Part shown: piece by piece, positions 2,271-13,507 of the stretch
Layout of the letters: every line of letters starts with the position of its first letter
How positions within the stretch are numbered: the first letter of the stretch is position 1
DNA from: Lachnospiraceae bacterium MA2020
Lineage (GTDB): Bacteria; Bacillota; Clostridia; Lachnospirales; Lachnospiraceae
NCBI GenBank assembly: GCA_000746015.1
Contig: JQKK01000007.1
Coordinates: 1 to 64,000, forward strand
Direction: 5' to 3'
DNA: 64,000 bases
Position numbers and translations under genes: made by a program
The notes under the pieces: generated by a model
What the model saw: the letters and a program-made list of their open reading frames with translations, nothing else
Told to the model about the DNA's origin: nothing
Databases searched by the model: none

Positions 2271-2714
2271 TTACTTTTTATTATTGATATTTTTTCGTTT
2301 CAGTTTGTGAGTGGCATAATCTAGCATATCACGCCTTCCTGCGGCATCCAGTTTTGAAAAGTAGTACAGCATTTCTCGCTGCTCTTGTGTCAGGCCTGCT
2401 AACTTCTCATCATTGATGAAAGAAAGATAGTCGGACATTTCTAACGCATCGGCACCTGGCGGTAAAGCATCATAATAGATATCATTGTCCAATTCAAGGC
2501 ACAGCTTTAGTAAATCATCAGTTGAAAGCCCATAGAATGCGGCTATTTTGTAAAGCGGTATAGGACTAGGCATTCTCTTGCCTGCTTCATAGGCAGAGTA
2601 TGTTTGCTGCCTGATTTCTCCGGCCATAGCGACCTCGCTTTGGGTGTAATTATGGGCGAGCCTCAGTTCTTTAAGTTTTTCAGCAATTTTTCTAGAATTA
2701 TTTTTCTCGGACAT
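2271..2714 (-). CDS. XRE-family transcriptional regulator
   Basis: A 147-residue protein with an N-terminal Cro/C1-type helix-turn-helix (about residues 10-65: LKELRLAHNYTQSEVAMAG, QQTYSAYEAGKRMPSP) and an uncharacterised C-terminal helical part. The start is set at 2714 because a good ribosome site (AAGAAGGTG, 2721-2729) lies six bases upstream; the ATG at 2723 falls inside that site. It is divergent from the accessory locus starting at 2863, and the gap holds two TAGTGGTAA direct repeats. It probably represses that locus and itself (inference). A decayed copy of this gene and of the same intergenic region lies at 7735-7957. Confidence 0.85.
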   Translation of the reverse strand: MSEKNNSRKIAEKLKELRLAHNYTQSEVAMAGEIRQQTYSAYEAGKRMPSPIPLYKIAAFYGLSTDDLLKLCLELDNDIYYDALPPGADALEMSDYLSFINDEKLAGLTQEQREMLYYFSKLDAAGRRDMLDYATHKLKRKNINNKK

Positions 2715-2770
2715 TATATGCACCTTCTTTATTAAAAGTTTAGCATTTATCCGAAATATTTATACAATGT

Positions 2771-2814
2771 TAGTGGTAATGTATACAGCGATAGTGGTAA
2801 ACTAAAACTATAAT
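2771..2814 (+). promoter_or_regulatory. Operator repeats and promoter of the accessory locus, copy A
   Basis: TAGTGGTAA occurs at 2771-2779 and 2792-2800, 21 bp (two helical turns) apart, just upstream of a TATAAT box at 2809-2814. The second repeat overlaps the expected -35 position, a layout suited to repression by the divergent XRE protein. The same pair with the same spacing recurs at 7879-7908. Confidence 0.65.
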
Positions 2815-2862
2815 TTGTCTTTTAAGAAATTAAGGTTGGAGGTATCAGGATGATATATATAT

Positions 2863-3078
2863 ATGCAAAGGCCGTTGACCATGCGGGAAATTGGGAAGAT
2901 ACTGAATTCTCTGACTCCATCGGGTAATCGTGCGCCTATGCCTTCTATACATGAGAAATCCTTATTTGACATAAATGCTGCGAATACAAGGAAGGAAATG
3001 GTCCTGGATAATTTTATTTTCGCTTTCGAAGAGCAGAATACAGATGCGATGGCGTTTGAGTATAAGCTTGACTTCTAA
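2863..3078 (+). pseudogene. Deletion-fusion small gene (head of the 7958 gene, tail of the 12225 gene)
   Basis: The N-terminal 54 residues nearly match the 101-residue protein at 7958, whereas the tail (EEQNTDAMAFEYKLDF) matches the end of the membrane protein at 12225 (NEQNTDARAFEYKLEF). The join falls at a shared GCTT(T) sequence. The simplest reading is a copy of the large operon that lost everything between these two genes. The ATG best placed for the GGAGG ribosome site is at 2850, but a TA tract two units longer than in the intact copy (12 vs 8 nt) puts it out of frame; only the ATG at 2863, far from that site, is in frame. Expression is therefore doubtful. The function of the head domain is unknown. 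Confidence 0.7.
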
Positions 3079-3092
3079 GGAAAAATGGTTTT

Positions 3093-4239
3093 ATGAATGA
3101 GTTTATAATGAATGATATAGAAATTGAAGATGACAATGATGATGTTATCACTGATCCGGAGGTGTATTATAATCGTGCATTTGTCCTTTTTGACACAAAG
3201 CACTATAATGATGCTTTCTCAGAGATAGAAAAAGCGATAAGGTATGGGAACGGAGAGTTAAAAATATAAGGTTTTAAAAATGAAGATCCTTATTGGCTCG
3301 GGGGACTATCAAAAAGGCGAACAGTTCATTGTCAACTCCAATATTTTGTCACAGATCCCGGATAGGTCTGATTCTATTTGGAAACAGGTTATGTCCGGAC
3401 TGGCGGAATGTGTTTGTTATTTATACGATGCAGAAAGCGTCAGTAATTCTGAAATTAAAAAGCTGAACAGTGACATAGTTTATGAATTGACATCTATGCT
3501 TAGTCGTGGAGACGGTGTATCGAAAAATGATACTCTTTCGGTCGCAGTGCATCAAATAGCTTCTGAAAAGGGTAATATAGATTCTAAGGCAAGACTTGGA
3601 TGGATGTATATTAATGGTATTGGTGTGAAAAAAGATGTTGCACAGGCTTTCAATTGGTATTTGTCTGCAGCCAAGCAAGGACACTTAGCTTCACAACATA
3701 ACACAGCCTTGATGTATCTTAGAGGAGATGGAGTAAACAAAGACATAGCGGAATCTATAAGATGGTTTGAATCTGCTGCAAGGGGAGGTTATAACGAGTC
3801 TCAGTATTTACTTGGCTTATTGTATGCTAATGGATCCGGTGTAAAGAAGGACGAGCAAAAAGCTTCAGAATGGTTATTTGATTCCGCTCAAAGAGGAAAT
3901 GATAGAGCTTCAAATAAGTTGACCGAGCTTGCAAATGAAGGAAGCTCATATTGTCAGTATGCATTAGGCAAACTATATTATGACGGCATAGCTTTCGCAC
4001 GAGATGATGATAAGGCTTTGCAATGGTGGATACAATCGGCCGCACAAGGAAATCAGGCGGCTGTTCAAGCCATAAAAGATATTAATTCTAATAGTAATAC
4101 TGAAGCAGCTGCTAATGTGGCATTAGCTAAGCAGGCTAATGCTGCAATGGCTGTTGATGATACCATATCACCAGCAGCCTTAGCTGCAGCCAATGTCATT
4201 GCTAAAGGCATTTGTAAGATTGCTGACTTCTTTAATTGA
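3093..4239 (+). pseudogene. Sel1-repeat protein gene, frameshifted in an A tract
   Basis: The first frame (3093-3269) encodes the acidic TPR head shared by this locus (MNEFIMNDIEIEDDNDD, DPEVYYNRAF, KAIRYGNGELK) and stops at 3267. The rest (3280-4239) is in the +1 frame and begins with the residues expected next (KILIGSG...). Removing one A from the 5-A run at 3260-3264 restores L-K-Y-K-V-L-K-M-K-I-L and one protein of about 380 residues. The body has five or six Sel1 repeats (e.g. GDGVSKNDTLSVAV, GIGVKKDVAQAFNWY, GSGVKKDEQKASEW) and an alanine-rich helical tail (ALAKQANAAMAVDDTISPA). Sel1 repeats are alpha-solenoid protein-binding modules. It may be a dead copy, an ON/OFF slippage switch or a sequencing error. 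Confidence 0.8.
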
Positions 4240-4267
4240 GAAGAAGTAATCTACCGGGTCCGAGCAA

Positions 4268-4336
4268 GTCTTTAAACTGCCTGACCCAAGGGATCGTCAG
4301 GGTACAAGTCCTTGACTTCTAAGGAGAAATGGGTTT
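4268..4336 (+). repeat. Conserved 69-nt leader, copy 1
   Basis: This spacer before the second Sel1 gene closely matches 6226-6294 over its full 69 nt, including TTAAACTGCCTGACCCAAG and the ribosome-site segment TTGACTTCTAAGGAGAAAT. The last 25 nt also resemble the spacers before 3093 and 12614, where the same bases are the end of the upstream small gene (...GACTTCTAAGGA). It contains a short CCTGAC...GTCAGG hairpin. The near-identity carries on into the coding region, so leader plus head form one repeated DNA module. Confidence 0.8.
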
Positions 4337-6103
4337 ATGAATGATTTCATTATGGATGATGATATAGAAATTGAAGATGACAATGATGATGTTATCACTG
4401 ATCCGGAGGTGTATTATAATCGCGCCTTTGTCCTTTTTGACACGAACCATTATGATGACGCATTAAATGAAGTGAATAAAGCTATAGAATATGGGAATGG
4501 AGCATTAAAATACATGGTCCTCAAGGTGAGAATCCTTATATGTTTAGAGGATTATCATAGCTGTGACCAATTCTTTTCAAAATTCAACCTTCTTTCGAAA
4601 ACTCAAAATGAAGATGTAGCAAAGGATGTCAGGGAAATCATCATGTCTAGCTATGCAAGAAGCATCTATAATTTGTACGATTCAGAGGATATTAGTGATA
4701 ACCTTGCTACAGGCTTGATATCAGTGATTAATGAACTTGCTTTGATGTTCCGCTATGGGAAAAATATACTAAAAGATGAAGCTTTTGCAGTAGCATTGTA
4801 TCATGTAGCGGCTGAAAAGGGTAACATGGAATCTCAGGCGTGTTTAGCATTTATGTATCAAAATGGATGCGGCACGCCAAAGGATATGTCGAAAGCGTTT
4901 TATTGGTATAGAGCTTCAGCAGAACAGGGATATAAGGAGGCTCAGTACAATCTTGCGTTGATGTATCTCAAAGGTCTGGGTATACCGAAAGATATTAGCG
5001 AGGCACTCATGTGGTTTGAAAGGGCTGCTGAGCAGGGAGATAGGGAATCTCAATATTTATTGGGACAATTATATAGTGGTAATTATGGAATTAAGCTTGA
5101 TGTGAAGACCGCTAAATATTTATTTGACGCCATAAAAAACGGGCATGATAAAGCAAAGGAAAGGCTGCTGGAATTGGCTGATAAGGGAGATCCTGAATCA
5201 CAATACTATGTTGGAAAGATGTACAAAGATGGGAAATGGATGGTACAAGATAACAAGAAAGCACTAGAATGGATTGAAAAATCGGCTGATCAGGGGAATG
5301 CAAAAGGTCAGAATGCCTTGGGATGTTTCTACCTAGATGGTATAGGTGTGTCACAGGATTATAACAAAGCGATGTCTCTTTTCCTTAAAGCAGCAAGACA
5401 GGAAAATGCATATGCCCAAGCAAATATAGGATATATGTATATGTCTGGTATAGGAGTTGAAGCAACACCAAGGCTGGCGTTATATTGGACGGAGCTCGCC
5501 GCAAACCAAAAACTCGACCGTGCACAACACCAAATGGGACATATATTTCAATGGGGAATTGGTGTAGAGGAAAACAACATTAAAGCGAAAGAGTGGTATA
5601 GTTTAGCTGCTGAACAAGGATATGCATGGAGTCAATATATGTTAGGCGCTATAGCTCTTGATGAAAGGGATTATGATACGGCCGTAAAATGGCTTATGAA
5701 AGCGGCAGATCAGGGATTAGTTTTTGCTCAAAATCGTCTGGGACTTTGTTATGAGAATGGGCAGGGTGTCTCTCAAAACTTTTCATCGGCTTTGGAGTGG
5801 TATCAAAAGGCAGCGGATAGTAATAATGCAAAAGGACAATATAATCTGGCTAAGATGTATGAAGAAGGCAAAGGTGTAGCAAAAGATGCTGTAAAGGCAG
5901 CGGAATGGTATAGAAAAGCAGCGGAACAAGGGGATATGGGGGCACAGTTTTCTTTGGGATGTGCATATGAAAATGGTCAAGGTGTAAGTAAAAATATAGA
6001 AGAAGCCGTAAAGTGGTATCAAAAAGCCGCAGATCAAGGACATGAACTAGCTCAAAGGCGGTGTGAAAGGTATCACAAATACAAAAGTTGGATGCAGCAT
6101 TAG
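4337..6103 (+). CDS. Large Sel1-repeat protein with acidic TPR head
   Basis: A 588-residue, apparently cytoplasmic solenoid protein. Residues 1-58 form the shared head: MNDFIMDDDIEIEDDND, then a TPR-like helix pair (DPEVYYNRAFVLFDT...DDALNEVNKAIEYGN). From about residue 165 there are about twelve Sel1 repeats (e.g. GCGTPKDMSKAFYWYRASAE, GKGVAKDAVKAAEWYRKAAE). The end is eroded: 6094-6204 still encodes the alanine-rich tail of the 3093 gene (ALAK, ADAAMAVDDTISPA), but one frame off and with TAG where the other copy has CAG. The present stop is thus secondary. Sel1 arrays scaffold protein complexes; the partner here is unknown. No signal peptide. Confidence 0.9.
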   Translation: MNDFIMDDDIEIEDDNDDVITDPEVYYNRAFVLFDTNHYDDALNEVNKAIEYGNGALKYMVLKVRILICLEDYHSCDQFFSKFNLLSKTQNEDVAKDVREIIMSSYARSIYNLYDSEDISDNLATGLISVINELALMFRYGKNILKDEAFAVALYHVAAEKGNMESQACLAFMYQNGCGTPKDMSKAFYWYRASAEQGYKEAQYNLALMYLKGLGIPKDISEALMWFERAAEQGDRESQYLLGQLYSGNYGIKLDVKTAKYLFDAIKNGHDKAKERLLELADKGDPESQYYVGKMYKDGKWMVQDNKKALEWIEKSADQGNAKGQNALGCFYLDGIGVSQDYNKAMSLFLKAARQENAYAQANIGYMYMSGIGVEATPRLALYWTELAANQKLDRAQHQMGHIFQWGIGVEENNIKAKEWYSLAAEQGYAWSQYMLGAIALDERDYDTAVKWLMKAADQGLVFAQNRLGLCYENGQGVSQNFSSALEWYQKAADSNNAKGQYNLAKMYEEGKGVAKDAVKAAEWYRKAAEQGDMGAQFSLGCAYENGQGVSKNIEEAVKWYQKAADQGHELAQRRCERYHKYKSWMQH

Positions 6104-6204: not shown

Positions 6205-6225
6205 TCCCGCGGTGGATCTGAGTAT

Positions 6226-6294
6226 GTCCTTAAACTGCCTGACCCAAGGGGTCGTCATTGTACAAGTCCTTGACTTCTAAGGAGAAATTGGTTT
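6226..6294 (+). repeat. Conserved 69-nt leader, copy 2
   Basis: Same length and nearly the same sequence as 4268-4336, ending in the TAAGGAGAAAT ribosome site before the clamp-like gene. Its central hairpin is weaker (GTCATT instead of GTCAGG). A partial third copy (CAAGTCGTTAAACTGTCTT) sits near 7603-7622. Confidence 0.8.
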
Positions 6295-7284
6295 ATGAAT
6301 GATTTTATAATGGATGATGATATAGAAATTGAAGATGACAATGATGATGTTATCACAGATCCGGAGGTGTATTATAATCGCGCTTTTGTTTTGTATGATA
6401 CGAATCATTATCAGGACGCATTGTCAGAGATCGATAAGGCAATAAAGTATGGAGATAGCGGAATAAAATACATTAAAATGAAATTAAAAATATTGTATGA
6501 AGGCTTTGGTTATGAAAGTTATTATCGATATGTAAAAAAGATTAGTTGTTTTTCATTATCTCAGTATTCATTGAAAAGAATAATTGACCAGACATTGTTT
6601 TCGGCTGGTAAAGGTAATAATCCCCTGTTTAATACGGTACTTTTTGAGATATCCGAAAATAGACTAATGGTTACTACATTAGATGGTCATCGAATTGCTC
6701 ATTGCACTACTATTATTAACAATAACAGTAGTAATAGTAATGCCGCCATTATTCCTATCAATTCACTGGAAAAACTATATTATAGATTAACCAATACTAA
6801 TGATATATATGTTAATTTTCTAATAAATAATAATGAAGCTTTATTTATGATTGATGAAAACATTGTAGATTTCAAACTGTTGTCTGGAAGTTACTTTGAT
6901 TATAGAGAATTTTTGTCGAGCTTTTCTAATCATAAAACAAAAGTACAAGTTATAAGAAACGAGCTATTAGAGATACTTGAGCTTGCCTGTGCTACAATAA
7001 AAGCAAAAACACCATGTATCATATCCGTCTGTGAAAACAGACTACATTTTTCAGCAGAAAGCAATACTGGAATGATAAGCAGAACGTTGAGTGTTGTAAA
7101 AAGAGGGGATGATATAAGGATGGGCTTTAATCCGAAATTTCTTGTTGAACCTATACGGGTTATAGACGATGAAACAATACAAATGTATTTTTCACCATAT
7201 GAAGGTCCATGCGTTCCATGCCATATTCGTGATGATAATGGCAATTACCATTATTTAATACTTCCGATAAATATAAACAGATAA
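6295..7284 (+). CDS. Acidic TPR head fused to a DNA polymerase III beta-clamp-like body
   Basis: Residues 1-58 are the head shared with the Sel1 proteins of this locus (first 37 residues almost identical to the 4337 product). From about residue 87 the protein reads as sliding-clamp domains 2 and 3. Domain 2 shows LKRIIDQTLFSAGKGNNPLF, then LMVTTLDGHRIAH, IIPINSLEKLY and the FDYREFLSSF motif at 201-210 (DnaN: FPDYRRVIP). Domain 3 (about 213-329) has RNELLEILELA, LHFSAESNTGM, FNPKFLVEPIRVI at 278-290 (DnaN: FNPKYLLDAL) and the ending YLILPININR (DnaN: yLI.PvRl). Clamp domain 1 is missing and replaced by the head. DnaN is the DNA-encircling processivity factor; whether this forms a ring is unknown. 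It is not the housekeeping clamp. No frame damage is seen. Confidence 0.85.
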   Translation: MNDFIMDDDIEIEDDNDDVITDPEVYYNRAFVLYDTNHYQDALSEIDKAIKYGDSGIKYIKMKLKILYEGFGYESYYRYVKKISCFSLSQYSLKRIIDQTLFSAGKGNNPLFNTVLFEISENRLMVTTLDGHRIAHCTTIINNNSSNSNAAIIPINSLEKLYYRLTNTNDIYVNFLINNNEALFMIDENIVDFKLLSGSYFDYREFLSSFSNHKTKVQVIRNELLEILELACATIKAKTPCIISVCENRLHFSAESNTGMISRTLSVVKRGDDIRMGFNPKFLVEPIRVIDDETIQMYFSPYEGPCVPCHIRDDNGNYHYLILPININR

Positions 7285-7553: not shown

Positions 7554-7734
7554 GGTGCCATTTTTTATGGTAATAGAGCATGGTATACGTATCGACCCAG
7601 ACAAGTCGTTAAACTGTCTTATTTTTATGCCCGGAATTAGAAAGGAGCCGGGATAATCATTAACAAATCTTATGAAAGGAGAATATGTAACTATTTCACA
7701 TTAACCCTGTGCTATATCAGCACACTATTAAGAA

Positions 7735-7822
7735 ATAGATATCATTGTCAAATTCGAGGCACAGCTTGATTAAGTCATCAGTTGAAAGCCCATAAAATGA
7801 AGCAATTATTTTTATCGGACAT
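7735..7822 (-). pseudogene. Remnant of a second XRE regulator gene
   Basis: On the minus strand it keeps the start and ribosome site of the 2714 gene (GAAGGTGCATCTAATG) and a segment matching that gene's middle, but about 150 bp in between are deleted. Translation gives only M-S-D-K-N-N-C-F-I-L-W-A-F-N before a stop. It marks a duplication of the regulator-operator unit, leaving one working regulator for both operator copies. Confidence 0.75.
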
Positions 7823-7878
7823 TAGATGCACCTTCTTTATTAAAAGTTTAGCATTTATCCGAAATGTTTATACAATAA

Positions 7879-7922
7879 TAGTGGTATTGCATACAACAAT
7901 AGTGGTAAAATTAACTTGTAAT
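7879..7922 (+). promoter_or_regulatory. Operator repeats and promoter of the AAA+ operon, copy B
   Basis: TAGTGGTAT (7879-7887) and TAGTGGTAA (7900-7908) have the same 21-bp spacing as at 2771-2800. A TGTAAT box lies at 7917-7922. The XRE protein at 2271-2714 probably controls both sites. Confidence 0.6.
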
Positions 7923-7957
7923 TTGTCTTTAAAGAAATTTAGGTTGGAGGTATCAGG

Positions 7958-8263
7958 ATGATATATATGCAAAGACCGCTGACCATGCGGGAAATAGGAA
8001 AGGTACTGAATTCTCTGACTCCGTCGGATAATCGTGCGCCTATGCCTTCTATGCATGAGAAATCCTTATTTGACATAAATGCTGCGAATACAAGGAAGGA
8101 AATGGCCCTGGATAATTTTATTTTCGCTTATAAAGGCATGTTGGAAGATGACGGTCCCTCATATTTGCAGAAGAAAATGTATGCTCAACAGAGTGCCAGG
8201 GATTATCTTCGTGAATCCTCTCATATCATGGAACTCGTTAAGAATGTAAATAGATGGATTTAG
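7958..8263 (+). CDS. Small uncharacterised protein, first gene of the AAA+ operon
   Basis: A 101-residue, soluble, mostly helical protein (MIYMQRPLTMREIGKVLNSL..., then a charged helical half ending NVNRWI). No signal peptide or membrane segment. The ribosome site GGAGG is well placed before the ATG at 7958. The first half recurs in the fused gene at 2863. The next gene starts 15 nt after its stop. I do not recognise the family; its place right after the operator and before the AAA+ gene suggests an adaptor or regulator of the ATPase (inference). Confidence 0.8.
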   Translation: MIYMQRPLTMREIGKVLNSLTPSDNRAPMPSMHEKSLFDINAANTRKEMALDNFIFAYKGMLEDDGPSYLQKKMYAQQSARDYLRESSHIMELVKNVNRWI

Positions 8264-8277
8264 GAGGAAGGATTAGG

Positions 8278-9501
8278 ATGGGGTTATTCGGACATAGTGA
8301 GGCATCTCAAATGACTGGTAAAAAAAAAATTGACAAGTCCGTCAATACGATTACATACAAGGACATATCCCGGACTTACGATGTCGGAGACACTAAGTTG
8401 CGTTTCAGCATCAAGGGAGCAAGCTATGGCAAGATAGACGGTAAGGAAGTCCTACTGGACGAGGAATTGGTAAGTGAAATGCTTGACAAGATGTGCCAGG
8501 CGGTTAAGTCAACCTATACCAAGTACAATCCGGTACCCACTGAGGTTGTCATATTGCATAGAAGTCAGACTCCTGACGCAATGCCGACAAACGATGTAGA
8601 AGATGGTGGAAAAAAAGTTAATCAGCCATTCGAGGCGTACAGTCCGAAGATATCATTGAAACAGGTTGTTCTTAATGAATCTGTAAAGCAACAGATCATG
8701 GTAGCGATTACAGCCGTAAAAAATCGGCGTAAGATGCTTGAGGACTGGAAGATGCCGCAGAGCTATTTCGGCAGCCGCGCAGTCATACTGAATTTTTATG
8801 GCAAGGCTGGTACGGGCAAGAGCATGGCAGCGGAAGCAATAGCGGATGCGCTCGGCAAGAAGGTCTATAAGATTAATTATTCCGAGCTGGAATCAAAATA
8901 TGTGGGGGAAACGCCAAAGAACATACGAAGAGCCTTTGACTGCGCTTCAAAGGATGATGCGGTACTGATTTTTGATGAAGCGGACTCATTTTTGGGAAAG
9001 CGTCTTACTTCTGTCACCCAGTCGGCAGACTATGGTGTGAATATCACTAGGAGCGTCCTGCTCATGGAACTGGAGAAGTTCGAGGGAGTAGTGGTTTTCA
9101 CAACAAATCTTATAAAGAACTATGATGAGGCGTTCAAGCGTCGAATCCTGCTGAGCGTGTACTTCGATATGCCGGATGAAGAGGCACGTGAGGCAATATG
9201 GAGAATGCATATAAACCCTGAAATGCCCATAGCTCCCGATGTAACTATGGAGGAATTGGCGAAAAAATTTACGGACGTGTCGGGAGCTGATATAAGAGAC
9301 ACGGTATTCTATGCAGCCCTTCATGCCTTGGAGCAGGACAAGGAAATGATCGGGTACGATAGCTTCGACTATGCGTATAACGCAATAAGGGAGCGGTATA
9401 GGGATCACGAAATGGAGGATAGTATAGAAATCATTTCGGATGAAAGGATTCCTGTGGATCAGGTGAAGAAAGCGGAGGAGAAGAATGTCAGCGATAGCTA
9501 A
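8278..9501 (+). CDS. Classical-clade AAA+ ATPase
   Basis: A 407-residue protein. Residues 1-120 are an unrecognised N-terminal region; the AAA domain starts near 125. Walker A is GKAGTGKS (175-182), followed by the KYVGET pore-loop signature (207-212) typical of the FtsH/p97/katanin clade. Walker B is VLIFDEAD (229-236), sensor 1 FTTN (274-277) and the arginine-finger region FKRRI (286-290), with the C-terminal lid and sensor 2 around SGADIRD (335-341). Such proteins thread or remodel substrate proteins through a hexameric pore. No membrane or protease domain is attached. The start at 8278 is chosen for the TAGGAGGAAGG site just upstream. It overlaps the next gene by 17 bp. Confidence 0.93.
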   Translation: MGLFGHSEASQMTGKKKIDKSVNTITYKDISRTYDVGDTKLRFSIKGASYGKIDGKEVLLDEELVSEMLDKMCQAVKSTYTKYNPVPTEVVILHRSQTPDAMPTNDVEDGGKKVNQPFEAYSPKISLKQVVLNESVKQQIMVAITAVKNRRKMLEDWKMPQSYFGSRAVILNFYGKAGTGKSMAAEAIADALGKKVYKINYSELESKYVGETPKNIRRAFDCASKDDAVLIFDEADSFLGKRLTSVTQSADYGVNITRSVLLMELEKFEGVVVFTTNLIKNYDEAFKRRILLSVYFDMPDEEAREAIWRMHINPEMPIAPDVTMEELAKKFTDVSGADIRDTVFYAALHALEQDKEMIGYDSFDYAYNAIRERYRDHEMEDSIEIISDERIPVDQVKKAEEKNVSDS

Positions 9502-10144
9502 TGCGGCTATATTATACAGGAAGGCGCAGATGGGCGCAGTTGCAGCTTTGTCAGATGTGACGGAGGCTGCTCTTGAAGAAACAAACTTTTATGACCTGGG
9601 ATACATCGAGGCTATGTCAAAGCGGATACAGGAAAAGCTGCATTCAAAGAGTGTGGAGCTTTCTACTAATATCGATATGGACAAGCAGGATCCTTATTAT
9701 ATTGAGAAACGTAAAGAGTTGCAAATAGATTGTAGGAAACTGGCTTTTCGACTGATGTTTATGGCATCAAATGATCCAAGGCAACTTTCGACATGTGAGA
9801 AGATTGCTGAGGATCAGGGATTTGACTTCATCCAGTGCATACGTGGGATGCAGGCTTATTACGACGGTAGTATGGAACAGGCTTTTAATATGATTGAGCC
9901 GTATTATGTAAAATATGGAACCGTCGAGGAACACTTTCTGGTCAATAAGGTATTTGGGATGCTCCTGATGAAACGTGGCAATTATGAGAAGGCCGCATCC
10001 TTTCTCACATATTCGCTTCAATTTAACCCTGATGACAGGGAATGTCTGGAAGCTTTAAAGAAATCATTAAGCTTCACAGGTAGGATGGAGCATAGCGGTT
10101 ATATTGATAGTGTCCTTGAAGTGCTGGATTGGAATTGGGAGTGA
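9485..10144 (+). CDS. Uncharacterised helical protein with TPR-like C-terminus
   Basis: A 219-residue all-helical protein. The C-terminal half reads as TPR-like hairpins (FIQCIRGMQAYYDGSMEQAF, LLMKRGNYEKAASFL, SLQFNPDDRECLEALKKSL). The N-terminal half has no match I recognise. The GGAGGAG ribosome site lies inside the end of the AAA+ gene and the start overlaps it by 17 bp, so the two are translationally coupled. That coupling and the TPR fold suggest a cofactor that brings substrates to the ATPase (inference). Confidence 0.82.
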   Translation: MSAIANAAILYRKAQMGAVAALSDVTEAALEETNFYDLGYIEAMSKRIQEKLHSKSVELSTNIDMDKQDPYYIEKRKELQIDCRKLAFRLMFMASNDPRQLSTCEKIAEDQGFDFIQCIRGMQAYYDGSMEQAFNMIEPYYVKYGTVEEHFLVNKVFGMLLMKRGNYEKAASFLTYSLQFNPDDRECLEALKKSLSFTGRMEHSGYIDSVLEVLDWNWE

Positions 10145-10149
10145 CAGAT

Positions 10150-10932
10150 ATGGAGCGTATAGATTATATCTATGAATTACAAGATGAGCTCTTTGAAGAA
10201 TATAAGAATGGTCTTTTTCTACAGAAAGAAATTGAAGAAGTATATGACGAGATTGATTACAAGCTACGCCGTGCAGATCTTTTAGGAAAAACTGTTCAGG
10301 CAACTGAGTTCCAGTTTCCTAAGCTTTATTCCATTGTAAAGAATATATCGGAGATTCTTGGAATAGATGCCCCACCACTTTATGTTTATGACAGCTACTA
10401 TTATGGAGCAACGAGTACTGGAATAAAGAAATGCTGGATCGAGATATCCGCCCGCAGTGTGCAGGATCTTCCTAAAGAGGATATCATTTTTATTCTTGCA
10501 AGGGAGTTGTATATGGTAGCAGACAGCATAGTAAGGGAAAAGACTATGATGGAAGAGATGTTCAACGTCATAGCAAGGGTAGCCCCAAAGGATTTGGAGC
10601 AGATATCGAGACTGAAATTCTACCATTGGTACCGTACTGCGAATTATGGAGCTGACAACTTTGCATACCTTATGTGTGGTAGCTTAAAGCATGCGGTTCA
10701 TGCAATACTTACCATTGTTCTCAACAGTAGAATGCTTGCTGAGCAGGTGAACATGAAAGAATACTTGAATCAAGCATCAAGGATCAATGCCATGGATGAT
10801 ACGGTTTACAACTATACAAAGTCTGACGAGGCTATACCTTATGCGCCGCACCGTATTAAGAATTTGATGGAATATTCAATGTCGGAAAGAGGCATGAAAG
10901 CTTATAGAAATAGTAGGATATTGGCAATATGA
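10150..10932 (+). CDS. M48-like peptidase fold with all zinc ligands lost
   Basis: A 260-residue protein that follows the M48 (HtpX/Ste24-like) soluble domain closely: FPKLYSIVKNISEILGI, PPLYVYDS, IEISARSVQDLPKEDIIFIL, then the active-site helix. That helix reads ARELYMVAD: HExxH has become R118-E119-L-Y-M122, so both histidines are gone while the glutamate stays. The third-ligand motif (family E-x-x-AD) reads NYGADNFA (165-172), with Asn for Glu. The late YAPHRIKNLM matches the family's HP...RI segment. It is therefore probably a non-catalytic binding protein. No membrane segments are seen. The ATG at 10150 follows the previous stop by five bases; an upstream TTG at 10129 is less likely. Confidence 0.8.
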   Translation: MERIDYIYELQDELFEEYKNGLFLQKEIEEVYDEIDYKLRRADLLGKTVQATEFQFPKLYSIVKNISEILGIDAPPLYVYDSYYYGATSTGIKKCWIEISARSVQDLPKEDIIFILARELYMVADSIVREKTMMEEMFNVIARVAPKDLEQISRLKFYHWYRTANYGADNFAYLMCGSLKHAVHAILTIVLNSRMLAEQVNMKEYLNQASRINAMDDTVYNYTKSDEAIPYAPHRIKNLMEYSMSERGMKAYRNSRILAI

Positions 10933-10956: not shown

Positions 10957-12174
10957 ATGCAACCAATGGAAGCGGCAGTTTTAGATGAATACAAAGTAAA
11001 ACCCCTTCAAGAACTTGTTGTCATGACTAAACAGGGTGATAGCGAGGCACAGTTTGAAATAGGAAGACGTTTCTTGTACGGGGAAGGCGGGGCAAAGCGG
11101 GACTATCCGTTTGCGTTACAGATGATTACCCCTGCTGCTGACAATGGCTGTGTGCAGGCTCAATATACCCTCGGCCTTATGTATGAGAAAGGATTGGGTG
11201 TGGATGCTGATATTGAGAAAGCTATAGCTTGGTATGATAAGGCTCAAAGGCAAGGGCATGAGTCGGCGAAGTTAAGGCTGGAACGGTTGTCACCATCAGT
11301 TACTGAAGATGTTCATCAAAAGGATATCGATGATTCGATAGGTGATAGCACTAAAGATTTCCGCACTGAACAAACAGAGTACGATGTTTTTGAGATGGAA
11401 GATGTCGAATTTGTTGATGAAAATCCGGAAGAAGATATCAAAATAACAAGTGATAGAACGGAAGAAATAAAGGATCCTGTTTTATATAAAACGAGAGCCA
11501 TGGTTGATGTTTTATGCGGCGATAGAATGTCCGCAATAAGAGATGCCGAAAAAGCGGCTTTGTACAGCGAAAACCTTGAGGAAGAGGAACAAGTAGATTA
11601 TTTAAGATTTCAACTTTCGATTATAACAGGCAAAGATTGTTCTCGGTTAAGTGTTCCTGATGTAGTTGAGTTCTCCAAAATTTCTAAATCAAATGGGGAG
11701 TATAAAGGGCGTTTTGGCGGAATTCTATTTCAGCTATTTTTATCTATATGGATATTAATCGGTATAATAGGGCCATTGTTGGTGTTTATAATAGGAATGC
11801 TGGATGCTGATTATGTGCTTACATTTCCAGCAATGTTGGAACTGTTTTTGATTGGCCTTCCGGGTTTGGTTCAGGCTCTTATTTTTGGTTTTTTAGGTCA
11901 TTCGGGCCGTAGATATAAAAGATTCTTAAAGTCAGCAAGACCATGTGATGTTGTTGAACCGTGGATTAAAGAAAAATTTACTACTATGGTAATGCAAGAA
12001 GGAGAAGAGAAAGCAAAGAAAAATCTGCTTGATTATGTTAATAAAGAAGTTAAACGGCAAAGGAGAAAGCGAAAGATATCTAAAGCGCTGGAAAGATGCA
12101 TTACAAACAATTATATGGTTCGAATAGCAACAAAACAGATACTAGAGGGTTTGGTAAAAGGCATAATGAGATAA
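10957..12174 (+). CDS. Sel1-repeat membrane protein with internal acidic TPR module
   Basis: A 405-residue protein. Residues about 28-105 hold two Sel1 repeats (EGGAKRDYPFALQMITPAAD, GLGVDADIEKAIAWYDKAQR). Residues about 130-200 repeat the head found at the N-terminus of the other Sel1 proteins: an acidic run (VFEMEDVEFVDENPEED) followed by DPVLYKTRAM...AIRDAEKAALYSEN. Two or three hydrophobic segments follow (about 250-315: LFLSIWILIGIIGPLLVFII, FLIGLPGLVQALIFGFLG), then a long basic C-terminus. It could anchor the AAA+/M48-like complex at the membrane (inference). It sits between the M48-like gene and the small membrane gene in one operon. Confidence 0.85.
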   Translation: MQPMEAAVLDEYKVKPLQELVVMTKQGDSEAQFEIGRRFLYGEGGAKRDYPFALQMITPAADNGCVQAQYTLGLMYEKGLGVDADIEKAIAWYDKAQRQGHESAKLRLERLSPSVTEDVHQKDIDDSIGDSTKDFRTEQTEYDVFEMEDVEFVDENPEEDIKITSDRTEEIKDPVLYKTRAMVDVLCGDRMSAIRDAEKAALYSENLEEEEQVDYLRFQLSIITGKDCSRLSVPDVVEFSKISKSNGEYKGRFGGILFQLFLSIWILIGIIGPLLVFIIGMLDADYVLTFPAMLELFLIGLPGLVQALIFGFLGHSGRRYKRFLKSARPCDVVEPWIKEKFTTMVMQEGEEKAKKNLLDYVNKEVKRQRRKRKISKALERCITNNYMVRIATKQILEGLVKGIMR

Positions 12175-12224
12175 AAATAGCAATCAATATGTATTTTATT
12201 TTTAGATGTTTAAGGAGGATGAAT

Positions 12225-12599
12225 ATGTTTTTATTGCTTGCAGGAGTAGTCCTTGCCGGAGCGGCAATCGGGGTTGCAGCGACCATCTTGTTTAAGAAAT
12301 ATTGGCCGAAATTTCAGGAATGGCTGAATAACTACGCATTGGATGTTGTTGAAAGAAAGTTGGGATATAATGCAAGAAAGACTATAGAGAGAGCGGAATC
12401 TTACGTGACAAGACTACATGACAAGCTGGAACATAGGACAACGGTTTATGTAGGCAGGCAGAGTGTTCTTGATACACATTTTCATAAGGTCACATTTAAA
12501 AGCGCAGCGCCTTTGTATAGTCAGGAAACTGAAGTACAGAATGCTTTCAATGAGCAGAATACTGATGCAAGAGCATTTGAGTATAAGCTTGAATTCTAA
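12225..12599 (+). CDS. Small single-pass membrane protein
   Basis: A 124-residue protein with one N-terminal membrane segment (MFLLLAGVVLAGAAIGVAAT), a basic-amphipathic helix (KKYWPKFQEWLNNYALDVVE) and a C-terminal tail NEQNTDARAFEYKLEF that is also found at the end of the fused gene at 2863. The start is set at 12225, six bases after AAGGAGG; an in-frame ATG at 12219 abuts that site. Its stop is followed after 14 bases by the next Sel1 gene. Not recognised; probably a membrane-associated subunit of the locus. Confidence 0.82.
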   Translation: MFLLLAGVVLAGAAIGVAATILFKKYWPKFQEWLNNYALDVVERKLGYNARKTIERAESYVTRLHDKLEHRTTVYVGRQSVLDTHFHKVTFKSAAPLYSQETEVQNAFNEQNTDARAFEYKLEF

Positions 12600-12613
12600 G
12601 GAAAAAAGGTTTT

Positions 12614-13507
12614 ATGAATGATTTTATAATGGATGATATAGAGATTGAAGACGATGAAGAATATGTCATCACAGATCCCCAGATATATGTAGAGAGAGCC
12701 CGCACCTTACTGAATATGCGATATTTCGAAGTTGCTATGAAAGAGGCTGAACAAGCTATTGCATATGGGAAGGGAGAGCCCCAATACTTGATACTGAAGC
12801 TAAGGGTACTGTATGAGAGTACACAATTTGAGCAGGCACTCAAATATATTAAGGATTCGCGATTATTTGAAATAATCAAAGGAAACTGTGATCTTTTGGA
12901 TGATGAACGAAATTACCCATATATGGTATTTGCAAAATGCGCAAAAGAGATAATTGCAGATAAGAAGAATAATAAGGTCATCATTAATACAAAAGATTGT
13001 TATAAATATGTTTTGACTCCATCTGAAGTATATCATTTGGGATGTATGTTTAGGTCTGGAAAAGGATTTTCAAGGAATGATCAAAGAGCGGTATCGATGT
13101 TTCAAGTGGCTACAAATAACGGTAATGTCGATGCAACCGCAAGCTTGGCGTATATGTATCAAATGGGTAGAGGCGTCCTGAAAAATAATAACATGGCAGT
13201 GGATTATTATACAAAGGCTGCAAAACAGGGAAATGTTGGAGCCCAATATAATCTTGGGGTGATGTTTCTTAACGGTAATGGCATAGGCCAAGATTATGAA
13301 AGAGCAGCATACTGGTTATTTCAAGCATCCGAAAAAGGTGATGCGGATGCCTTGTACCAGATTGGACGAATGCATTATAAAGGAATGCGATTTCAAAAGA
13401 ATACATCAAAAGGTATTGAGCTTATAAGTAGAGCAAAGCAGAGAGGAAGTAAAGCGGCTGAACGATTCCTGAATAATTATTATGAACAGGAAGAAAAAAA
13501 TCGTTGA
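12614..13507 (+). CDS. Sel1-repeat protein with acidic TPR head, last gene of the locus
   Basis: A 297-residue protein. Residues 1-60 are the shared head (MNDFIMDDIEIEDDEEYVIT, DPQIYVERARTLL...MKEAEQAIAYGKG), and residues about 135-290 hold four Sel1 repeats (GKGFSRNDQRAVSMF, GRGVLKNNNMAVDYYTKAAK, GNGIGQDYERAAYWLFQASE, ...). This copy is undamaged. It lies 14 bp after the small membrane gene, with the TAAGGAAAAAA ribosome-site layout of the other head genes. It is probably cotranscribed with the AAA+ operon and is thus the likely active partner of the ATPase complex (inference). Confidence 0.88.
   Translation: MNDFIMDDIEIEDDEEYVITDPQIYVERARTLLNMRYFEVAMKEAEQAIAYGKGEPQYLILKLRVLYESTQFEQALKYIKDSRLFEIIKGNCDLLDDERNYPYMVFAKCAKEIIADKKNNKVIINTKDCYKYVLTPSEVYHLGCMFRSGKGFSRNDQRAVSMFQVATNNGNVDATASLAYMYQMGRGVLKNNNMAVDYYTKAAKQGNVGAQYNLGVMFLNGNGIGQDYERAAYWLFQASEKGDADALYQIGRMHYKGMRFQKNTSKGIELISRAKQRGSKAAERFLNNYYEQEEKNR

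Follow-up and report, generated by a model that had tools for sequence, protein, structure and literature searches.

Sliding clamps are known as rings. In a review (PMC11139829), the E. coli clamp is described as closing through domain-3 residues Ile272 and Leu273, which pack on domain 1 of the partner, and through Glu298, 300, 301, 303 and 304, which pair with basic residues of the partner's domain 1. The double substitution I272A-L273A turns this clamp monomeric, according to a second paper (PMC3022782); its authors could not clone a plasmid for a monomeric clamp with a working cleft and read this as a dominant-negative effect. The clamp-loader subunit delta binds the I272A-L273A monomer about 50 times more tightly (PMC11139829). 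DnaN is also a target: phage Twort Gp168 acts on it by occupying the clamp DNA channel (PMC11139829), and the toxin RipA acts on it as well (PMC12795458).

Here we describe a gene of Lachnospiraceae bacterium MA2020 in which two thirds of a clamp are joined to another N-terminal module. The window that we analyzed is a stretch of 64,000 nucleotides from contig JQKK01000007.1, and the gene is an intact ORF at 6295 to 7284 on the forward strand, which codes for 329 amino acids. The protein consists of an acidic head, TPR-type hairpins and DnaN domains 2 and 3. With Lachnospiraceae-type DnaN it has in common domains 2 and 3, the cleft residues and the fold; it differs in lacking domain 1, in its changed ring face and in carrying a TPR head. 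Unlike DnaN, it is encoded outside any dnaA-dnaN-recF neighborhood. Among the PMC literature matches listed, which largely leave subscription journals outside, we found no description of a DnaN-TPR or DnaN-Sel1 fusion.

Domain make-up, occurrence and origin of the fusion

The first-pass annotation had read the body of the protein as DnaN domains 2 and 3, and on this the Pfam profiles, the nearest PDB chain and the AF2 fold agree. Residues 88 to 325 match the two domains (Pfam, 3e-15 and 4e-9), and the nearest PDB chain is 3t0p (5e-45), the DnaN of Eubacterium rectale. The AF2 model (pLDDT 84) superposes on solved clamps, with a top match of 2.1 Å over 239 residues; 3t0p has the same fold (2.1 Å over 241 residues, 35% identity). 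Profile matches, alignment and model place domain 2 at about residues 86 to 207 (6550 to 6915, forward strand) and domain 3 at about residues 213 to 328 (6931 to 7278, forward strand). Neither of the outcomes named beforehand as speaking against this assignment, a profile search without a DnaN match or a fold different from that of clamps, was observed.

Clamp domain 1 was said to be replaced by a head of the type found in the locus's own Sel1 proteins, and this description held. Residues 1 to about 83 comprise an acidic head and TPR-type hairpins that are also present in the neighboring Sel1 proteins. The acidic tail (residues 1 to 22, 6295 to 6360, forward strand) has a net charge of -11 and mostly low pLDDT, and is common to neighboring proteins. 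The hairpins (residues 23 to 83, 6361 to 6543, forward strand) are assigned from a TPR_2 match below the cut-off (E 1.9e-4) and from the structure model, which places helices at 23-35, 39-53, 57-71 and 73-83. No Sel1 match was found in the fusion protein at E up to 1, unlike the other head proteins of the locus. Domain 1 is absent: TIGR00663 matches from position 113 only. A DnaN profile run on 81 phylum-sample genomes gave 83 matches, 80 of which begin by position 10; the other three are two pieces in one genome and the gene of the window, which begins at position 121. Sequence and model thus establish a head joined to domains 2 and 3.

Across the genus, family and phylum samples, only a single genome showed the fusion. 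No second head-clamp fusion appeared among 48 genus genomes (its own included), where fusions may have been missed because any match, ordinary dnaN included, was obtained in only 21 of the 48. In the family, 346 of 397 genomes were matched and, among the matches listed, only that of the window starts before query residue 57. The phylum sample (81 genomes, DnaN profile) contained no second fusion. The look for the same fusion in other Lachnospiraceae that the annotation had proposed therefore brought no second case within the limits of these searches.

Elsewhere in the host genome (3.72 Mb in 49 contigs) lies a normal dnaN, flanked by genes that by eye read as DnaA- and RecF-like. Identity of the fusion body is 31% to this DnaN, 31 to 34% to the 22 genus DnaN and up to 40% to DnaN from further genera in the family; within the genus, the remaining 21 DnaN are 53 to 71% identical to that of the host. 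We rejected an origin from the host's own dnaN, since the body is no closer to it than to the rest of the genus. In trees, the body falls on a long branch among Lachnospiraceae-type DnaN, its exact place unsettled. Base composition was considered as a sign of foreign origin and rejected: the body has 30.5% GC and a GC3 of 0.22, against 40.3% GC for the window, and says nothing on origin because the host dnaN is similarly AT-rich (32.7% GC, GC3 0.25). Nor was a phage or plasmid source retained, as part-matches occurred in 15 of 50,697 phage and 11 of 72,556 plasmid records and none covers 80%.

With the whole fusion as query, no match in genome or viral contigs was confirmed, and scans of viral contigs with the AAA+ pair and with genus DnaN found nothing. 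The clamp alignment returned eight DnaN loci from viral contigs, of which we used six; L112 and L113 have the same beginning as L111 and were left out. The six are 22 to 28% identical to the fusion body. The remaining controls were all 22 DnaN matches of the genus, 29 phylum DnaN (every locus returned except the host's) and nine family DnaN, which are not a random sample because they were chosen as the best matches to the body from the matches in 346 of 397 genomes. Two viral contigs (L107 and L108) carry a Lachnospiraceae-type DnaN with 14 of 18 cleft residues as in the host's and Ala at 272; phages that infect this host group may supply a clamp of their own.

Ring face and partner-binding cleft

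E. coli K-12 DnaN numbering was mapped onto the alignment for the ring-face and cleft columns. The fusion has L230, A233 and T234 (6982 to 6996, forward strand) where E. coli has R269, I272 and L273, and S262 and R263 (7078 to 7083, forward strand) in place of E303 and E304. Among the 22 genus DnaN, column 269 is always Arg (Leu in the fusion) and column 272 always Leu (Ala in the fusion), while column 273 is Leu, Met or Phe in 18, 3 and 1 of them (Thr in the fusion). Column 303 is Asp in 12 and Asn in 10 (Ser in the fusion), and column 304 is Glu in 20 and Asp in 2 (Arg in the fusion). Of the other interface columns, 298 is highly variable in the genus, 300 is Gly in all genus DnaN and in the fusion, and 301 is Ser, Ala or Thr in the genus and Met in the fusion.

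We chose four ring-face traits: a basic residue at 269, hydrophobic residues at 272 and 273, and an acidic one at 304. Column 269 is our own addition by inspection and lies outside the interface list of PMC11139829. The fusion scores 0 of 4, against 4 for 61 and 3 for 6 of 67 other DnaN (22 genus, 9 other family, 29 phylum, 6 viral and E. coli). The DnaN that score 3 are five of the six viral ones (Ala272 in two, Thr or Cys273 in three) and one from the family (Ala304), so either a single change can be tolerated or rings are not all alike. Scored by residue class, one of five conserved interface columns is kept in the fusion, compared to 90 of 117 elsewhere (p 0.015, uncorrected); by identity the deficit is not significant (1/4 versus 32/62, p 0.31). 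Neither class test shows a deficit of this kind for the six viral DnaN or E. coli (p at least 0.43).

Like the E. coli I272A-L273A monomer, the fusion has an intact cleft and, at the two hydrophobic positions of the ring face, residues that are small or polar; it differs in being natural, in having one domain fewer and an attached head, and in its further ring-face changes. With 0 of 4 traits, and given that I272A-L273A monomerizes the E. coli clamp, the protein probably forms no ring. The annotation had suggested that the fold was reused "as a ring or adaptor". The ring half of that proposal finds no support, as the protein lacks domain 1 and its domain-3 surface, which would face domain 1 of the partner, has lost all four traits; the adaptor half fits better, since the partner-binding cleft is kept.

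For the cleft, we used the residues listed in the review PMC11139829. Most of subsite I lies in domain 2 of the fusion (N109, L129, G131, H132, R133, I134 and F201), and domain 3 contributes N279, F282, L323, P324 and N326. Twelve cleft columns are conserved in 31 Lachnospiraceae DnaN (22 from the genus and 9 from the family), and at the sequence level the fusion keeps 11 of them. Outside the cleft, 32 of 62 conserved columns are kept (Fisher test, one-sided, uncorrected p 0.009). By residue class, the excess is not significant (16/17 versus 90/117, p 0.087), nor is it against a wider set of 60 DnaN (p 0.18 to 0.19).

Compared with the host's own DnaN, 12 of 18 cleft residues are identical, while the remainder of the body stands at 30%. 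The 29 phylum DnaN, whose remainders are 24 to 36% identical, share 4 to 10 of the 18 with the host; the ranges are 4 to 14 for viral DnaN (n = 6), 12 to 18 for the genus and 13 to 17 for the family (n = 9). As judged from the alignment, the likeness of the fusion to the host clamp is thus highest at the cleft. Its cleft affinity may nevertheless differ, because four positions (155 Phe, 246 Glu, 247 Phe and column 344) carry residues unlike those of all 22 genus DnaN; column 344, beside a three-residue insertion, is uncertain.

The canonical pentameric clamp-binding motif did not occur in the 12 window proteins scanned, and we therefore name no partner. A single match to the hexameric motif falls in the Sel1 protein encoded at 4337 (0.19 expected), and with a looser pattern the XRE, 7958 and M48-like proteins have one match apiece (0.2, 0.2 and 0.3 expected).

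The surrounding locus and the age of the fusion

The annotation had set the fusion in a Sel1/AAA+ locus, and the neighbors bear this out. Upstream lie an XRE-type regulator (2271 to 2723, reverse strand), a head copy that stops early (3093 to 3269, forward strand) and a protein of 588 aa with a head and 11 Sel1 stretches (4337 to 6103, forward strand). The Sel1 body that belongs to the short copy is in another frame, at 3280 to 4239, so that 3093 to 4239 is a broken sister of the head/Sel1 genes. Downstream, all on the forward strand, follow a small first gene (7958 to 8263, 101 aa; by eye, similar to L051:7808-8116 of Lachnospiraceae bacterium AD3010), a classical AAA+ ATPase (8254 to 9501), a TPR-like protein (9485 to 10144, 219 aa), an M48/HtpX-like protein without the HExxH zinc ligands (10129 to 10932), a Sel1 protein with a hydrophobic segment (10957 to 12174), a small membrane-type protein (12219 to 12599, 126 aa from an internal Met) and a head and Sel1 protein of 297 aa (12614 to 13507). 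The Sel1 protein with the hydrophobic segment contains an internal head-like stretch (11431 to 11622, E 6.7e-7); the head module is therefore found in at least two kinds of locus protein. At the contig end, an ORF at 7 to 285 resembles, by eye, the C-terminal end of a transposase protein of the TnpB type.

Among PADLOC models, the AAA+ protein is nearest to IetA of the anti-phage system IetAS (E 1.6e-30). However, no IetS was matched among ten locus proteins scanned (E up to 0.01), and TPR, M48-like and membrane-type neighbors are present instead. An NCBIfam model (printed IteA) gives the AAA+ protein 89.6 bits against a cut-off of 510, and proteasome-activating nucleotidases score higher. The M48 likeness is weak (E 0.017 to 0.12, plus a zinc-site stretch seen by eye), and the structure model of this protein is unusable (pLDDT 40). 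The HExxH histidines are missing, by eye, in the protein of the window and in L055, L074, L056 and L106 (five rows); a pseudo-protease partner of the AAA+ protein is possible. The small membrane-type proteins of the window, L051, L074, L056 and L106 end in a similar C terminus (acidic residue, Tyr, Lys/Arg), perhaps an AAA+ contact site.

In AD3010 (G003; L051 and L055), the core locus has the same gene order, established partly by eye: XRE, small gene, AAA+, TPR, M48-like, Sel1 with a hydrophobic segment, small membrane-type and a single head protein, whose place the 12614 gene takes in the window. The AAA+ and M48-like proteins are each 74% identical to those of the window. There is no clamp at the AD3010 locus, which adjoins integrase- and resolvase-like genes (by eye). 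The head-Sel1 proteins of both loci resemble the fusion in their acidic head with DIEIE...VITDP and in the TPR hairpin; unlike in the fusion, their bodies are Sel1 repeats, in AD3010 also with a hydrophobic segment. The four-gene core (AAA+, TPR, M48-like and membrane-type) is present in two more Lachnospiraceae (L056 and L074) and in one genome from a different family of the order (L106). Weak head matches (E 1.2e-5 or worse) were found in 11 other genomes of the 397 in the family, and reflect mainly the TPR part, as eight of the 11 begin at profile position 14 or later. In Haemophilus haemolyticus (L057, 9028 to 15009), a related AAA+ gene lies beside WYL-type regulator, MotA/TolQ-like and OmpA-like genes (by eye), a set that we take to recall Zorya.

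Pieces of the locus start are repeated: parts of 2474 to 3025, covering the 5' end of the XRE gene and the stretch preceding it, recur in 7734 to 8129, and 3022 to 3167 resembles 12543 to 12688. ORF 2863 to 3078 combines the first part of the 7958 gene with the last part of the membrane-type gene (12096), which in sequence is the footprint of a tandem locus copy with an internal deletion. The repeated locus starts left behind this deletion-fused ORF, the broken head/Sel1 gene, the head/Sel1 gene at 4337 and the clamp fusion.

The fusion itself begins in a 260-nt repeat (6214 to 6473, forward strand) that spans the intergenic stretch and the start of the head and is 85% identical to 4256 to 4515 (forward strand), before and in the 4337 Sel1 protein gene. 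Over 6228 to 6377, which runs from the intergenic part into the head, the two copies agree at 142 of 150 positions; beyond 6377, they agree at 63 of the next 90, with background thereafter. By this comparison, the 5' end of the fusion is young. The body, in contrast, has a terminal branch that measures 1.9 changes per site in one tree and 3.2 in another. When neutral change was simulated crudely, with substitutions only, 0 of 4,000 copies still had an open frame, even at 0.25 changes per base. Since a young 5' end is joined to a very divergent body whose frame is open, it is likelier that the body is old and its head newly copied than that the fusion arose as a recent accident.

Possible roles and their meaning

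Our leading explanation, still a tentative one, is that a sliding-clamp fragment has been reused as a non-ring binding module, docked through its head, whose cleft would capture clamp-binding proteins. In function, the protein is probably not a clamp but a hook or decoy aimed at replication proteins. The suggestion that the locus acts on replication or DNA came from the annotation, and we infer the same; in favor of a locus role, the syntenic AD3010 core has its own head protein. The fusion protein would be monomeric, and its TPR head, like those of its Sel1 sisters, would dock it on a core complex of AAA+, TPR, M48-like and membrane proteins. The cleft would then capture QLxLF-type proteins of host or phage, such as polymerases, clamp-loader delta, MutL-like proteins and similar. 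Capture could report an attack on replication to the AAA+ machine (a decoy sensor), or it could pull clamp-binding proteins off the fork (an adaptor or effector). The sister head proteins would have the same role, with Sel1 solenoids for other ligands.

The single genome, the very long branch of the body and an array in which one head gene is broken and one ORF is a deletion fusion could all be expected of recombination debris, that is, of a head copy joined by chance to a dnaN fragment in a decaying tandem array, with no function. We consider this rather unlikely: the frame is open over 329 codons, which neutral drift of that length would close in the crude simulation, and a body far more divergent than the recently copied head and upstream stretch still fits the fold and keeps its cleft. 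The kept cleft and changed ring face would also suit an abortive effector, a monomeric clamp fragment that, once released or induced, sequesters clamp-loader delta or polymerases and halts replication. The apparent dominant-negative effect of the E. coli monomer (PMC3022782) and its tighter binding of delta (PMC11139829) lend such a poison some plausibility, but no antitoxin-like partner is evident on reading the locus, and we hold it to be less likely still than debris.

More doubtful again is a decoy or immunity protein that poses as the host clamp and so draws phage proteins or toxins directed against the clamp to itself. Gp168 and RipA (PMC11139829 and PMC12795458) exemplify such attackers; yet Gp168 sits in the clamp DNA channel, which the fusion is unlikely to form, and the likeness to the host clamp peaks at the cleft. 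Least credible, and in our view very improbable, is a working clamp, in which three copies form a six-domain ring, as in the T4 and PCNA trimers, or one copy joins the host DnaN ring. Dimeric and trimeric clamps do share their overall shape (PMC11139829), but here ring-face residues are changed, domain 1 is missing and TPR hairpins are fused at its would-be position.

The reuse of a clamp fragment as a head-docked binding module can be carried further, to a reading that we offer as speculative, possible but on the unlikely side. The locus would encode an AAA+ immune-type complex with interchangeable adaptors that share one head, and one of these would be a ring-dead clamp that recognizes or removes clamp-grabbing proteins. 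The head and its recombining 5' repeat would then be a cassette for swapping bodies.

What is new, at the level of the alignment, is a clamp body that keeps 11 of 12 conserved cleft residues but none of four ring-face traits. A natural clamp piece with its groove kept and its ring apparently given up would show the clamp as a plain protein-binding module. It raises the direct question of whether a cell or a defense complex fishes for clamp-binding proteins, and it points to an uncharacterized AAA+ locus with a set of head-sharing adaptors.
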